From assembly GCA_024278985.1 (NCBI GenBank), contig JAJRSC010000024.1, positions 1-44,462 of the forward strand: a stretch of DNA of 44,462 bases, written 5' to 3'. This document shows positions 2,932 through 26,813 of the stretch, in pieces. The stretch is from an archaeon (GTDB taxonomy: Archaea; AGJL01; Methanococci; Methanococcales; Methanocaldococcaceae). Every line of letters begins with the position of its first letter. The first letter of the stretch is position 1. A model generated the notes under the pieces. That model saw only the letters and a program-made list of their open reading frames with translations. It did not search any database and was not told the DNA's origin. The position numbers were made by a program, and so were the translations under genes.

Positions 2932-3914
2932 ATTTCCACCTTTCTTTTAATATAGATATAGGATAAATATCCTAATACTGTTGGAAATAAATAAGAAATA
3001 AACCTATCTAATATATTAACAGCTCCTGCTATTGAAACAGGAACATTAAACATTGTAAATACTCCTATTGTAATGGCATCTGCTGAACCTAAACCTGATG
3101 GAGTGATGGAAAAAACTCCTGAAAGTAATGCTAATAAATAGACCACAGCAACTACAAATATATTAACACTATAGTATAATGCTAAGAAAAAGATATAATA
3201 CTTTGTTATATCTACAACTATCCATAATAAAGAAAATATAAATGATAATTTTGTATATATGTTATTTTTATTACCTTTAAAAAATAATATTCCTCTGTAA
3301 AATTCATCTATTATTTTAATTATTTTCTCCTCATTATATTCATATGGTAAATATTTACATATAAATCTATATGTTTTTATTGTAATTTTTTCTAAAAGTT
3401 TTCTATTTATAAATATATATAAAACTCCTAAAGATATTATAAGTAAGGATATCCAGGCAAATATTAAAACTCCTTTATAAGAGAAACCTAACATTATAAA
3501 GTATAATATAACAAAAAATGTGGCAATTATGTAGATTAATGTATCTAAAAATCTCTCTATAAAAACAGATGAATAACATATACCTTTTGGAATTTGCTCA
3601 AGTTTAGATAAATAATAAGCCCTAAAAACTTCTCCCCCTCCTCTCATAGAGGGAGTTATATTATTAAAGAACTGTCCTAACAATACATTTAAAAAAATAT
3701 TAATAAATTTTGCATTATATCCCAATGCTTTTATAACACACTTCCATCTAATACCCATAACAATAAAAACAATAATTTGCATAAAGATGGCCAAAAGTAT
3801 ATAAAAAATATTTGCCTCCTTTAACACCAACAAAATCTCATTTATTCCTATAATATACAAAATAATAAGTAATAACCCTCCTCCAATAATAAAACCAATA
3901 TATTTATTAATCAT
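2922..3914 (-). CDS. UPF0104 / YbhN-family integral membrane protein
   Basis: 330 residues with about eight hydrophobic spans. It belongs to the lysylphosphatidylglycerol synthase transmembrane-region family (UPF0104, flippase-like), judged by NNITPSMRGGGEVFRAYYLSK near residues 84-104 and the late GVFSITPSGLGSADA motif near 267-281. M. jannaschii has homologues annotated as UPF0104. The family is thought to transport or modify lipid or polyprenyl-linked substrates, but the archaeal role is not established. The start ATG overlaps the stop of the nuclease-like gene. Confidence 0.85.
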   Translation of the reverse strand: MINKYIGFIIGGGLLLIILYIIGINEILLVLKEANIFYILLAIFMQIIVFIVMGIRWKCVIKALGYNAKFINIFLNVLLGQFFNNITPSMRGGGEVFRAYYLSKLEQIPKGICYSSVFIERFLDTLIYIIATFFVILYFIMLGFSYKGVLIFAWISLLIISLGVLYIFINRKLLEKITIKTYRFICKYLPYEYNEEKIIKIIDEFYRGILFFKGNKNNIYTKLSFIFSLLWIVVDITKYYIFFLALYYSVNIFVVAVVYLLALLSGVFSITPSGLGSADAITIGVFTMFNVPVSIAGAVNILDRFISYLFPTVLGYLSYIYIKRKVEIWR

Positions 3915-4425
3915 AATCTATAACCTTTTTAAGTTTATTATTTTCAAGAACATAAACAAAAAAATTGTATTTTTTGGCAATATTTATAACCTCCTTCCAT
4001 TCTTCTGCTAAACAAAAAATAACTTTAATTTTTCTATTTGTTGTTATTGGTAGAGAATATATATTTTCTAAAGATTTATATATCTTATTCATTTTTTTTA
4101 AAGTTCTTCTTTTATCTGTTTCTATTTCAATAATTATTATTTCTTTTTCTGATATTAAAACTATATCCGGCCTAAATCCTAATTTTACAAAATTTAAACT
4201 TTTCGATTCAACATAACACCCCAACTTATTACCTAAAATATTTAAAATCATTTCTCTCATTAATGAATGATAATACTCTTCTCTTCCAATTTTTTTTCCT
4301 GATGATATAAAGATTTTTAAGTTATTTATAGCACTTTCAATTGCCTTATCATTTAAATCTTTATTAATAATTGTTAAATCTTCAACCATCTTTTTAATTT
4401 TTTCTACAACTTCAGATTTTTGCAT
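3907..4425 (-). CDS. PD-(D/E)XK nuclease-like protein overlapping mutS
   Basis: 172 residues without a family name I recognise, but with the layout of a PD-(D/E)XK nuclease. An early helix carries acidic residues (E49, E50). A strand ends in RPDIVLI with D87. The next strand, IIIIEIETDK, has E100 and E102, i.e. an E-x-E version of the D-(E)xK site as in BamHI. A Lys/Arg-rich helix and two more beta-alpha units follow. The hydrophobic strand pattern resembles RecB or Hjc-like nucleases. Its first 22 bases overlap the end of mutS in another frame, so it is likely co-translated with MutS. Activity is inferred; it could also be a non-catalytic relative. Confidence 0.55.
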   Translation of the reverse strand: MQKSEVVEKIKKMVEDLTIINKDLNDKAIESAINNLKIFISSGKKIGREEYYHSLMREMILNILGNKLGCYVESKSLNFVKLGFRPDIVLISEKEIIIIEIETDKRRTLKKMNKIYKSLENIYSLPITTNRKIKVIFCLAEEWKEVINIAKKYNFFVYVLENNKLKKVIDYD

Positions 4426-6880
4426 TTTCTCACAATTTTGTCCAACTCATTCAACGCCTGAATTGGAGTAAGATGGTTAATATCTATCTTTTGAATTTCT
4501 TTTATAATCTCTTTAACCTCATTGTTAATATCCTTTTTATTTAATTCCTTATATATCTCATAAGCCCTCTCTACCACTTCCTTAGGTAAAACAAACTCAG
4601 CAATCTTTATTCCATAACTTTCATTACTTGCTCCTCTTTTTATCTTTCTATCAAACTCTAAACCCTTATCTGTCTCAATAACTCTAAAATGGTAGTTTTT
4701 AACACCTTCCAATTTTTCCTCCAACTCAGATATTTCATGGTAGTGTGTAGCAAAAAGTGTTTTAGAGCCAATCTTATGGAGATATTCAACAATTGCCCAG
4801 GCTAAACTTGCCCCATCTTTACTTCCAGTACTTTTCCCCACTTCATCCAAGAGAACTAAACTTTTACTTGTAGAATTCCTTAAAATTTGTCCAACTTCAG
4901 AAATTTCAACCATAAAACTACTGTATCCTCTTGTAATGTCATCAACTGTTCCAATTCTTGTAAATATTCTATCAACTACTCCAATAGATGCATAACTTGC
5001 AGGAACAAAACAGCCAATTTGTGCCAGTATTGTTATTAGGGCTGTCATTCTTAAATATGTAGATTTTCCAGCCATGTTTGGCCCAGTTATTAATATAATT
5101 TTACTTTCTCTTGTTAAATTAACATCATTAGGAATAAATTTAGTATTTAATTCAACAGTTGGATGCCTACCATCTTTTATTATTATACTATATCCATTAT
5201 TTACTTTTGGTTTTTTATAATTGTAAAGAACAGAAATTTCTGCAAATGTAGATAATACATCAATCTCAGCAATGTTGTGGGATATCTCTCTAATATCATC
5301 AACCTTTTCAGCAACTTTTTCCCTAACTTCTAAAAATAGCTCATATTCTAATCTTTTAATCTTTTCATCATAAATTAAAATCTTCTCTTCTATCTCTTTT
5401 AATTCATCTATAACATACCTCTCACTATTTGCAAGAGTTTGTTTTCTTTTATAGTCTTTAGGAACTAATTTAGTTTTTGTTTTGGAACTTCTATATAATA
5501 CCCAATAACTGTATTATATCCAATTTTTAATTTTTCTATTCCAGTTCTTTGTCTTTCTCTATTTTCTATTTCATAAAGTTTATTTAAATAGTTATTTTTA
5601 GCTTCTCTAAGATTATCCAACTCTTCAGAATAGTTTTCTTTTATAATTCCTCCATCAGTTATATTTATAGGAGGTTCATCTACAATAGCATTATCAATTA
5701 ATTCAACAATCTCATTTAACAATTTTAAGTTTTCTACTATACTACTTAACTTTTTAGAGACAAATTGGAAATTTTTAATTTCTTTAACATTTTTTAAAGA
5801 TTCTTTTAAAGCTACTAAATCCTTTGGAGATGCTTTATTATATTCAATCCTACTGACAATTCTATCCAAATCATAAATTTCTTTTAAGATTTCTCTTAAA
5901 TTCTGTCTTATAAAACTTTTTTGATATAGTTCTTCAACACTTTCTAATCTATTTTCTATTTCATCAACATTTAATAAAGGTCTTTGAAGCCACCTTTTTA
6001 ATAATCTACTTCCCATAGATGTCTGTGTTTTGTCCAAAATTTCAATTAAAGAGCCTCTTTTACTACCATCTATTAAATTTTTAAATATCTCAAGATTCTT
6101 TAATGTTGTAGAGTCAAGAATCATATAGTCCTTACTTTCATATTTTTGTAATCTAAGTTTTAAATTTTTTATTAAAAGAGATTCACTAACATACTTTAAA
6201 ACTGCTCCAACAGCAAGAAGTTCCTCATTATCAAGTTTAATATCTTTATGATTGGTTATATATTCACTAACATAATATTTTGCTTCATTTAAATTAAAGT
6301 AATCCTCAACAAGAGGATGCACTACTTTGATTATTTTTTTAATTTCTTCAATATTTTCAAAGTTTTTAGGAAGGATACACTCAACTGGAGAGAATTTTAA
6401 TATTTCTGCAACTACATCATCAAAATTTTTAACTGATGTAACTAAAAACTCACCTGTAGAAATATCTATTAGGGCAATTCCATATTTAAAACCTTTGTAT
6501 ATTGAGATTAAATAATTATTTTCTTTTGTTAATAGTTCTTCTTCTATTAAAGTTCCTGGAGTAATTACTCTAATAACTTCTCTTTTAACTAATCCTTTAG
6601 CTTTTGAAGGGTCTTCCACCTGCTCACAAATAGCTACTTTATAACCTTTTTCTATTAACCTTTTAATATATGGAAGAGCAGCATGATGAGGAACTCCTGC
6701 CATAGGATGTTTTTTATCTCTTGTAGTTAATACAATTCCTAACTCTTTAGCAGCAATTTTTGCATCTTCATTAAATAATTCATAAAAATCTCCTACTCTA
6801 AAAAAAAGAAGGCAGTCTTTATAATGCTCTTTAATTTTGTAGTATTGTCTCATCATTGGAGTTATAGACATAAAATCCAC
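4404..6880 (-). pseudogene. mutS: DNA mismatch repair protein MutS (bacterial type), one frameshift
   Basis: Full-length MutS1 of about 825 residues, read in two frames. The N-terminal part (6880 to 5465) has the mismatch-reading F-x-E motif, F32-Y33-E34 in RVGDFYELF, then connector, lever and clamp domains. It stops at TAG after IEVPKQKLN. The second frame resumes exactly there and continues LVPKDYKRKQTLANSERY through the Walker A GPNMAGKST (about 5084-5058), the LVLLDE Walker B and ATHYHE, ending with an ordinary MutS C-terminus at 4404. Restoring one A in the A-runs near 5470-5482 joins the frames. The post-Walker B signature is GKSTGSKDG instead of the usual GRGTS-x-x-DG. No mutL is in the window. 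Indel error, recent decay or -1 slippage on A5 are all possible. Confidence 0.93.
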
Positions 6881-7206
6881 CTTTTTTTAATTAAAATTTA
6901 AAACTAAAATAATATTCTTAATTAAAAATTTATTATGTGCAAATTTACAAAATAATAATTTTGAAAATGGAAAGTTATTAGGATATTTTTAATATATTAT
7001 TTATCTCAACTATTTAAAACTTCTTAGTTAAATTTATTAATGTAAGTTTATTATTTTAAAATAAATAAAAATATTTTTTTAGTGAAATTATTAACTTAGA
7101 AAAAATTAATAATAATGATGTATTTAAAAAAATTAAATTTGATAAAGATGAGGAAATTAAAGAAAATAAAAATTTTAATCATAATATAATTATAAAAGGA
7201 GATAAA
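6881..7206. other. AT-rich divergent region between mutS and PP2C
   Basis: About 325 bases. The left half (to about 7068) is extremely A/T-rich and holds the mutS promoter side; I see no ORF there. From 7069 a frame stays open into the PP2C gene and reads like protein (Lys, Glu, Asn and Ile rich) but has no ATG, GTG or TTG. A GGAG at 7198-7201 precedes the first conserved PP2C strand. Confidence 0.5.
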
Positions 7207-7914
7207 GTTTATGGAATATCAGATAAGGGAAATAGAGAAAATAATGAGGATAATATAATAATTAAAAAGATAGAAGATATCTATATATTAGGAGTAGCGG
7301 ATGGATTGGGCGGGCATAATGCTGGAGAAGTAGCATCGAAAATAGCAATTGAAACATTAGAAGAGGAATTTACAAAGAGATATAATAAAAAATTATCAAT
7401 AGAAGAGATAAAAGAACTTTTAAGGGAAATATATAATAAGGCACATGAGAAAATAAAAGAAAACGCGATAGAAGATAAAGAAGGGATGGGAACAACATTA
7501 ACAACAGCAATAATAAAAGGAGATAAATGTATTGTAGGAAATTGTGGAGATAGTAGGGCATATTTAATAAGAAATGGAAAAATAATATTTAAAACAAAAG
7601 ACCATACCTTAGTTCAGACATTAGTAGATGAAGGGCATATAACAGAGGAAGAAGCGTTTTATCATCCTATGAAAAATATTCTTAACTATGCTTTAGGAAT
7701 AGATGATATTAAAGTTGATATTTATGAATTAAATCTAAAAAAAGGAGATATAATATTATTAAGTTCTGATGGTCTTCATGATTATCTTAAAGAATCTGAA
7801 ATATTAAAAATTGTTAATGAATATTCTTCTCCTGAACTTATAGCCAAAGAACTTTTAAATTATTCTTTAAATATTTCCAAGGATAATATTAGTATTATAG
7901 TATATAAACACTAA
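7207..7914 (+). CDS. PP2C-family protein phosphatase, start unresolved
   Basis: A metal-dependent Ser/Thr phosphatase. Motifs in order: VYGISDKGNRENNEDN from 7207, VADGLGGHNAGE with the metal-binding DG at 7300-7305, GMGTTLTTAI, GNCGDSRAYLI, LLSSDGLHDYL and a final SKDNISIIV. That is a complete catalytic domain. The puzzle is the start: the only in-frame standard codon is TTG at 7306, which would remove the first motif and the metal-binding Asp. The frame is open back to 7069 with no ATG, GTG or TTG. A GGAG at 7198 points to translation beginning near 7207 (GTT), a non-standard start. An upstream indel or a dead gene are the alternatives. No protein kinase is next to it. Confidence 0.8.
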   Translation, partial: VYGISDKGNRENNEDNIIIKKIEDIYILGVADGLGGHNAGEVASKIAIETLEEEFTKRYNKKLSIEEIKELLREIYNKAHEKIKENAIEDKEGMGTTLTTAIIKGDKCIVGNCGDSRAYLIRNGKIIFKTKDHTLVQTLVDEGHITEEEAFYHPMKNILNYALGIDDIKVDIYELNLKKGDIILLSSDGLHDYLKESEILKIVNEYSSPELIAKELLNYSLNISKDNISIIVYKH

Positions 7915-24432: not shown

Positions 24433-25416
24433 ATGATAAATATAAGAGAACTAAAAAGGTATGTTAATCCATTTTTTATAACAATTAGAAAAGACAAAAT
24501 TTTAGTAAATAATAAAAGAATGGCCAGATTATCAAAAAAAAAGATGCTTGAAATTGAGGACATTTTTGGAGTTCCTGTTATATATTCAAAAACATATGAA
24601 TATATCTCTACAAAAGTAGGAAGATTCATAACTAAGCATAAACTTCTTTCTCCTAAGGATGTTATTTTAGTTGGTTTTAGTGGAGGTAAAGATAGTTTAT
24701 TGCTCTTACATATGTTAGAGCCATATAGGAGAAAAATGGGAATTAAAATAATTGCTGTAACTGTTGATGTAAATATTTCTGGTGTAAGACCCTGGGAAAG
24801 TGAAAGAATTGATATATTAAAAAGAGAGTGTGATATGTTAGATATTCCATTAGTTGTTTTAAGATATGATAAAGATGTTTCCTACTTATCTGAACTATTA
24901 ACAAAACATTCTAAGGGTATGGGATTTTCTCCATGCTTTTCCTGTTCTATTGTTAAAAGATATTTAATAGGAAAGTATGCTAAAAAATTATCAGTGGAGG
25001 AAAATATACCCTATGAGAAAATAAAAATTGCCTATGGTCATAACTTAGATGATAATTCTGATACAATACTCTCAAATATATTTAAAGGAGAAAGAATAAA
25101 AATGATGAATCCTATAACAAAGTTCAATAAAAGGGTTGTTGATTTCATAGAGTTTAAACTTGAACTTGAAGATTGTACTATTATAAGACCCCTCTTACCA
25201 GTATTGGAAGATGATATAATTAAGGCATTAGAAGAATGTGGAATTAAATATTATAAAGATAAAGAAGTTTGCCCATACAGTAGAGAAAGAGGGGACAGTA
25301 TAAGAAGAAGATGTCATGAGATTTTAGAAGAACTTGAAAAAGAAATTCCAAATATCAGAGAAATGGTAGTAAGTTCTGCAATAAAAACAGTTGAATTTTA
25401 TAAAAAATCATCCTAA
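24433..25416 (+). CDS. PP-loop ATPase, TtcA/Ncs6-like
   Basis: 327 residues. The PP-loop GFSGGKDS is near residues 82-89. A CxxC follows in FSPCFSCSIVKRY, then GHNLDDNSDT, which is typical of the TtcA/TtuA/Ncs6 tRNA-thiolation ATPases, and a late Cys in VCPYSRERGDSIRRR. The N-terminal zinc fingers of TtuA/Ncs6 are missing, so it is a diverged member. A tRNA sulfur-transfer role is likely by family but not proven. Its end overlaps the bioA stop by nine bases, convergently. Confidence 0.8.
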   Translation: MINIRELKRYVNPFFITIRKDKILVNNKRMARLSKKKMLEIEDIFGVPVIYSKTYEYISTKVGRFITKHKLLSPKDVILVGFSGGKDSLLLLHMLEPYRRKMGIKIIAVTVDVNISGVRPWESERIDILKRECDMLDIPLVVLRYDKDVSYLSELLTKHSKGMGFSPCFSCSIVKRYLIGKYAKKLSVEENIPYEKIKIAYGHNLDDNSDTILSNIFKGERIKMMNPITKFNKRVVDFIEFKLELEDCTIIRPLLPVLEDDIIKALEECGIKYYKDKEVCPYSRERGDSIRRRCHEILEELEKEIPNIREMVVSSAIKTVEFYKKSS

Positions 25417-26785
25417 AGCTTCTTTTATAGCATCATAAACATTTTTACATAAAAATTCAATTTCTTCCTCAGTTATAGATAGTGGTGGATTAATAATAAC
25501 AACATTTCCAATAGGTCTCATATAAATTCCTCTTTTTAATAATGCCTTAGCAACTCTAAAACCTGCTTTGTATCCATATTCATATGGTTCTTTTGTTTTT
25601 TTATCTCTAACCAATTCAATCCCAATCATAAAGCCCCTACCTCTTACATCTCCAACATGTTCCAATTCTTTAACTTCTCTAATTAATTCATTTAACATTT
25701 TTATCTTTGGTTGTATCTTCTCAATAATATTTTCTTTTTCAAATATCTCCAAGGTAGCCAGTCCTGCAGAACATGCTAATTGGTTCCCTGTATATGTATG
25801 TCCATGATAAAAATGCTTTGCCTCTCCATAACTCTCCTAAAAATTCATTAAATATTTTTTCTGTTGTTAAAGTTGCTGCTAATGGTAAATATCCTCCAGA
25901 GATTCCTTTACCTAAACAAATAATATCTGGCTTTTTTAACTTTTTTAATTTTTTATTTTCAGAGAAGAACATTTTTCCAGTTCTACCAAAACCTGTAGCA
26001 ACTTCATCCAAAATAAGAATAATATCATTTTCTTTGCAAACTTTAGCAACTTCTTCAATATATCCATCAGGGTAGGGAATCATTCCAGCAGCTCCTCTAA
26101 TTCCAGCCTCAAGAATAACACAAAATATTTCATCTTTCTTTTCCTCTATTGTCTTTAACATCTCTTCTAAACATTTCATAGAACAAAGTTTTTCATTTCT
26201 TTCATCAGTATCTTTAAAGTTGTTGTATTTACATCTATAGCAGTATGGAGGATTAACATGATAACCTTCAAATAATAAAGGTCTAAATATCCCATGAAAC
26301 AATTCAGAGCCTCCTACAGACATTGCTCCAACAGTATCTCCATGATATCCTTCTTTAACAGAAATAAATTTTTTCCTTTTTTCTCCTTTTAAATAATAGT
26401 ATTGATAAGCCATTTTTATAGCAATCTCAACAGCTTCAGAGCCATCTTCAGAATAAAAAACTTTTGTTAAATGTTTTGGAGTTATATCCACTAATTTTTT
26501 AGCCAATAATATAGATGGAACATTTCCAGAACCAAGAAGTGTAGAGTGACATATCTTATCTGCTTGAGATTTTATTGCATCAATAATTTCCTTTCTACTA
26601 TGTCCAAATACGTTACACCATATTGATGAAACAGCATCTAAATATTTATTTCCATATATATCTATTAAATAATTCCCTTCTCCTCTCTCAATAATTAAAT
26701 TTTCTTCATTTATATAATCCTGCATTTGAGTATAAGGATGCCAAATATATTTTTTGTCCCACTCTTCCAAAAGTTTTTTATCCAT
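25408..26785 (-). pseudogene. bioA: DAPA aminotransferase BioA, one frameshift
   Basis: Class III aminotransferase acting before BioD in biotin synthesis, transferring an amino group from SAM to KAPA. It starts [22 protein letters not shown], has [14 protein letters not shown], the [16 protein letters not shown] loop and the PLP Lys in [15 protein letters not shown]. The first frame runs to about 25837, then turns into nonsense. The second frame continues the family sequence ([10 protein letters not shown], then [18 protein letters not shown]) to 25408. Removing one base near 25836-25837 (CC on the plus strand) restores a normal protein of about 459 residues. Indel error or recent inactivation are the two explanations. 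Confidence 0.92.
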
Positions 26786-26813
26786 AAATAATCACTCAAA
26801 AAAGATTTTAATT

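Follow-up and report, generated by a model that had tools for sequence, protein, structure and literature searches.

A mutS1 gene and its overlapping neighbor

The window analyzed here, a stretch of 44,462 nucleotides, is one contig of a draft Methanocaldococcaceae genome (1.107 Mb in 30 contigs, 85.8% complete). Its minus strand carries a mutS1 gene (4404 to 6880) and, immediately downstream, a gene for a 172-residue protein (3907 to 4425) that AlphaFold models, Foldseek searches, and weak Pfam matches in family members point to as a PD-(D/E)XK-type nuclease. The ORF coordinates confirm the 22-base overlap claimed in an earlier note on this DNA, in which the start of the predicted nuclease gene lies inside the end of mutS (4404 to 4425, minus strand).

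In the assembly, a one-base frameshift divides mutS into two minus-strand ORFs, over which Pfam recognizes domains MutS_I, II, III, IV, and V in order. The 5′ piece of 471 amino acids (5465 to 6880) contains mismatch-binding domain I, domains II and III, and the start of domain IV, while the 3′ piece of 369 amino acids stop to stop (4404 to 5513) contains the end of domain IV, ATPase domain V, and the C-terminal helices. Thus, of the single mutS gene described earlier, the MutS1 assignment with domains I to V stands, but the assembled sequence, with one base missing, holds two frames instead of one. The hallmarks read from the sequence were all found: the F-Y-E mismatch-recognition motif (6779 to 6787), the Walker A motif GPNMAGKST (5058 to 5084), and the C-terminal segment of the bacterial MutS1 type, which runs up to 4404. 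In the intact relative L017, domains I to V lie within a single ORF, whose product scores 971.7 bits against the NCBIfam MutS equivalog model NF003810 (cut-off 480) and 922.4 bits against TIGR01070 (cut-off 641.7). The C-terminal piece of the window MutS alone reaches 443 and 420 bits, respectively, falling under these cut-offs because the gene is split.

Alignment with four relatives (G008, G009, G013, and G042) places a single-base deletion between 5479 and 5480 (minus strand, CCAAAA-CAAAAAC), which is the sole internal gap in the window row. The mutS gene is intact in every full-length two-gene relative (~820 to 830 codons; products of 818 to 824 amino acids in the intact relatives used for comparison). 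A second gene of the window, bioA (25408 to 26791, minus strand), is likewise broken into a pair of ORFs that overlap in different frames (25739 to 26791, 350 codons; 25408 to 25836, 142 codons), probably by another frameshift error of the draft. Given the intact relatives and the split bioA, the mutS frameshift is likeliest to be a draft sequencing or assembly error, and programmed frameshifting is unlikely; a real, recent mutation is possible.

The plus strand of the window has a PP2C-type phosphatase frame (7069 to 7914) whose first ATG, GTG, or TTG falls inside the domain; the N-terminal motif is encoded farther upstream, where no usual start codon is present. The translation of positions 2 to 253 repeats VKIRPLRYGN, which suggests that direct repeats of a CRISPR-like kind lie at this end of the contig. 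In two relatives, CRISPR direct repeats (RF01358) are located just downstream of the mutS-nuclease pair (L018 of G008, 5965 to 7391; L017 of G013, 7041 to 7071).

Linkage to mutS and shared ancestry

Homologues of the small protein were recovered from 15 genomes, as 13 separate genes (4 in Methanocaldococcus and 9 in Archaeoglobaceae) and 2 fusions in ANME-1 archaea. A search of 61 relatives found it in five genomes, namely the window's own, three of the same genus, and one more distant, and in each it adjoins mutS. A profile of these five sequences matched 11 genomes of a 394-genome sample of the phylum of G042: nine belong to family f9, in which the members with names are Archaeoglobaceae, and two to family f29, one being the ANME-1c archaeon Candidatus Methanoxibalbensis ujae. 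Among 84,980 species genomes scanned, nine loci were detected, all archaeal and all adjoining or fused to mutS. Within a Methanococcales sample, MutS and the nuclease each occur in 4 of 36 genomes, and the four are the same for both. The nuclease is present in 9 of 55 Archaeoglobaceae, always next to MutS; MutS domain I was found in eight of these nine, and in the ninth (G333) the contig end cuts mutS. One further Archaeoglobaceae genome, G352, has MutS domain I, and its mutS leaves the 4,666-base contig before the expected nuclease position.

In 13/13 two-gene loci, the nuclease gene and the 3′ end of mutS share 22 or 25 bases, the nuclease ATG lying inside mutS in all nine Archaeoglobaceae and all four Methanocaldococcus cases. 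In two ANME-1 genomes, each from its own genus, a single ORF (1133 and 1054 codons, counted from stop to stop) encodes both proteins, with the nuclease domain at the MutS C-terminus. Since the domain is fused to MutS in two genera, the interpretation of a MutS-nuclease pair gains independent support. None of the 15 recovered homologues lies away from mutS. The linkage, which the earlier note had proposed to count, is therefore complete and far beyond chance. Tight packing and overlap of genes are common in archaea, and the pairing could in principle be a neutral accident of operon structure. We give this reading practically no credence: adjacency holds in 13 of 13 loci across two lineages although the outer neighbors of the pair vary between loci, the shared MutS clade speaks against it, and the fusions contradict it. 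Nor is there a sign of a mobile defense gene, since plasmids and viral contigs yielded no relative of the small protein.

A tree of 32 MutS sequences unites the two-gene and fused MutS proteins in one clade (support 100/100) that is distinct from the MutS-MutL type of MutS, ordinary ANME-1 MutS included. The FxE motif is common to the MutS relatives, being F-F-E in the fused proteins, and their Walker A motif reads GPN[MA][AS]GKST. Following Walker B, two-gene and fused MutS have LLDEVGK in common, while the MutL-type sequences examined read LDEIG[RK]. Domain II, inspected for a lost MutL contact, is only slightly more diverged in the pair than in MutL-type MutS. Methanocaldococcus is nested within Archaeoglobaceae in the MutS tree, which suggests that the pair was transferred between lineages, into Methanocaldococcus. 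The nuclease tree agrees, grouping Methanocaldococcus with G042 and G110. Because of the conserved overlap, the fusion, and the shared ancestry, MutS and the small protein very likely constitute a functional unit.

Predicted fold and active site of the small protein

The 172-residue window protein has no match over cut-off in Pfam, NCBIfam, PHROGs, or PADLOC, and a sequence search of solved structures gave none that was significant (best E 0.1). AlphaFold2 yielded fairly confident models: that of the window protein has a mean pLDDT of 83.2 (from an alignment of five sequences) and that of its G110 homologue one of 86.0 (fifteen sequences); both consist of two N-terminal helices followed by an alpha-beta core. 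The top Foldseek PDB match of both models is the N.BspD6I nickase, and further matches include XisH, EndoMS/NucS, Cdn1/Can2/Card1, R2 retrotransposon, and cap-snatching endonucleases, with modest scores (best E 8e-4, TM 0.3 to 0.45). All of these belong to the PD-(D/E)XK superfamily. Seven of the 15 family members weakly match Pfam PDDEXK_10 (best 1.7e-4) and nine of the 15 AHJR-like (best 0.0024), all below the curated cut-offs. The evidence thus supports a PD-(D/E)XK nuclease fold in its E-x-E variant, with nuclease activity as a prediction, in line with the restriction-endonuclease-like fold that had been expected from the sequence. Three known identities were considered and set aside: the families that Pfam scans of the members list at E <= 1 include neither NucS (PF01939) nor MutH, and the pair does not qualify as MutS7, as no HNH is among the families listed and MutS domains II and IV are present.

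Thirteen alignment columns are invariant in 15/15 members, including E49, H53, R85, P86, D87, E100, E102, and K111. R85-P86-D87 (4165 to 4173, minus strand) would provide the putative catalytic aspartate of the core, and E100-x-E102 (4120 to 4128, minus strand) the putative catalytic pair, in which the third position is E instead of the K of (D/E)XK. D87, E100, and E102, the residues singled out in the earlier note, have thus been lost in no homologue, and E49, H53, and K111 join the conserved set.

The replacement of the (D/E)XK lysine by glutamate might mean that the protein keeps its fold but is catalytically inactive, contributing to MutS as a structural or DNA-binding subunit. Its rate of change could be read in the same way, as the nuclease evolves at ~3 times the rate of MutS (branch lengths 0.87 versus 0.27 for the window and 0.58 versus 0.16 between G110 and G042). 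The long branch of the window nuclease is, however, proportionate to that of its MutS, and so gives no sign of special relaxation. Against inactivity, E49, H53, D87, E100, E102, and K111 are invariant even in the fused forms, which share 20 to 23% identity with the G110 protein, and the E-D-ExE arrangement recalls BamHI, in which an E-x-E active site is catalytic. We therefore regard an inactive subunit as quite improbable and favor an active nuclease.

MutL, NucS, and a proposed route to incision

Neither MutL (PF01119) nor NucS was found in the source genome, which is 85.8% complete. MutL is absent from 13/13 two-gene genomes (controls matched in 11/14), and NucS from 12/13. The exception is G196, in which a NucS frame of 168 codons (L112, 5350 to 5856) lies on a 9.2 kb contig; it may be truncated or a contaminant. 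In the 394-genome sample, MutL is missing from 10 of 11 nuclease-bearing genomes versus 11 of 287 other MutS1 genomes (Fisher 3e-12, uncorrected for kinship, with most of the ten MutL-less genomes belonging to one family and representing few independent events). No Archaeoglobaceae were among the MutL-positive genomes found. The co-distribution involves few independent lineages, namely Archaeoglobaceae, one apparent transfer into Methanocaldococcus, and ANME-1c. The two fused genomes differ from each other: in G382, of the ANME-1c type, MutL occurs together with two matches to MutS domain I, while in G192 (89% complete) two MutS domain I matches and no MutL were found. The “MutL-free” repair pair of the earlier note therefore holds for the two-gene form and does not extend to the fused form as a whole. 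Otherwise, the computational checks that were run bear out the interpretation given in that note. Among 14 Methanocaldococcus genomes, the pair is present in four, NucS in five sister species without MutS, and neither in five; the two do not overlap, yet p is ~0.13 by hand, and this exclusion was not taken as evidence by itself.

With MutL missing and the MutS1 hallmarks kept, the best reading, which we consider probable, is that MutS, once bound to a mismatch, guides its own nuclease to incise DNA, with no involvement of MutL. Like other MutS1 proteins, the MutS of the pair would recognize mismatches by its FxE wedge and ATPase. Recruitment of MutL (and MutH) would be replaced by direct control of a dedicated small PD-(D/E)XK nuclease, which would be made from the overlapping downstream gene, probably via translational coupling, and would cut DNA at or near the mismatch. 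While the linkage, the fold, and the co-distribution are computational results, we infer a physical complex of the two proteins, a mismatch-dependent nuclease activity that may leave a nick rather than a double-strand break, and a role in repair.

The main rival to mismatch repair is a role in the control of recombination, in which MutS would bind mismatched or branched intermediates and the nuclease would cut them, in the manner suggested for MutS2-Smr and plant MSH1-GIY-YIG. These known nuclease-bearing MutS proteins (MutS2, MSH1) are indeed tied to recombination (PMC12292046). The weak sequence resemblance of the small protein to nuclease families of the Holliday-junction type (AHJR-like, Hjc) and the co-occurrence in G382 of the fused form with MutL and another MutS match point in the same direction. 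MutS2, on the other hand, is without the MutS1 mismatch domain, whereas the MutS of the pair has domains I to V with FxE and scores as MutS1 instead of MutS2. In addition, the absence of MutL from all 13 two-gene genomes and of NucS from 12 of them leaves the replication-error role vacant. We thus hold a recombination role to be unlikely, if still the strongest of the alternatives to mismatch-triggered incision.

Less likely again is that the small protein is a MutH-like accessory, for which MutS alone would be insufficient and a further matchmaker or clamp would be needed. In E. coli, MutS1 likewise works with a PD-(D/E)XK nuclease for incision, namely MutH, which depends on MutL for its activation. 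Neither the MutS nor the nuclease sequences of the pair showed a classical PIP box, which would fit such a need for a further factor. In contrast to the E. coli system, the two-gene genomes are without MutL, the small protein has no MutH Pfam match, and the nuclease is genetically coupled or fused to MutS; its direct fusion to MutS in two genera favors direct control by MutS, the reading that we prefer.

Prokaryotic mismatch repair has been described as either MutS-MutL or NucS, with few species possessing neither (PMC5290159, PMC8228993). NucS/EndoMS, which is among the Foldseek matches, is a PD-(D/E)XK mismatch endonuclease of many archaea lacking MutS-MutL; it recognizes mismatches by itself, without MutS, and differs in this from the scheme proposed for the pair. 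MutS proteins with attached nucleases have been reported as MutS7-HNH, of which the octocoral mtMutS was proposed to be a self-contained mismatch repair protein without MutL (PMC3166940), and as MSH1-GIY-YIG and MutS2-Smr, while Cyanophora MutS1 has a weak Mrr-like extension (PMC12292046). The octocoral protein resembles the pair in having its own nuclease and in the MutL-free proposal, but the nuclease is HNH instead of PD-(D/E)XK and is fused, whereas that of the pair is mostly a separate overlapping gene; mtMutS also shows no domains II and IV. Plant-type MSH1 also combines MutS with a C-terminal endonuclease proposed to cut at recognized mismatches (PMC12292046); its nuclease fold is a different one, and it is known from plants, giant viruses, and a small Gammaproteobacteria clade. 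MutS2-Smr is a MutS-family ATPase with an attached putative nuclease (PMC12292046); this has the Smr fold, and the roles of MutS2-Smr are in recombination or ribosome rescue. Within the open full-text literature, we found no report of an archaeal MutS1 with a PD-(D/E)XK partner. MutS with its own nuclease is thus a known kind, and the archaeal pair appears to be unrecognized.

The low mutation rates of MutL-less archaea, above all hyperthermophiles, are an old question that NucS answers for some of them only. If our reading is true, the MutS-nuclease pair and its natural fusions provide a second answer besides NucS, and mismatch repair is predicted in genomes now scored as lacking a complete pathway. 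It would also offer a minimal two-component system for studying incision triggered by the MutS clamp and strand choice without MutL. We lean, if only slightly, toward a third form of prokaryotic mismatch repair besides MutS-MutL and NucS, in which a thermophilic-archaeal MutS1 with its own PD-(D/E)XK endonuclease would carry out MutL-free, mismatch-triggered incision, the pair having passed from Archaeoglobaceae-like donors to Methanocaldococcus and become fused in ANME-1c.

In a second Methanococcales family, f2 (G014 to G035), MutS was found in 0 of 22 genomes and NucS over the cut-off in G024 only. The NucS match of L034 (G005) has an in-frame TGA and an open frame of 124 codons, so that this nucS is possibly broken. 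Lastly, an ANME-1-family MutS encoded by a 1407-codon frame (L123 of G124, 3103 to 7326) has an apparent intein inside Walker A, with FVGNGFLNHN preceding STFMRQ.
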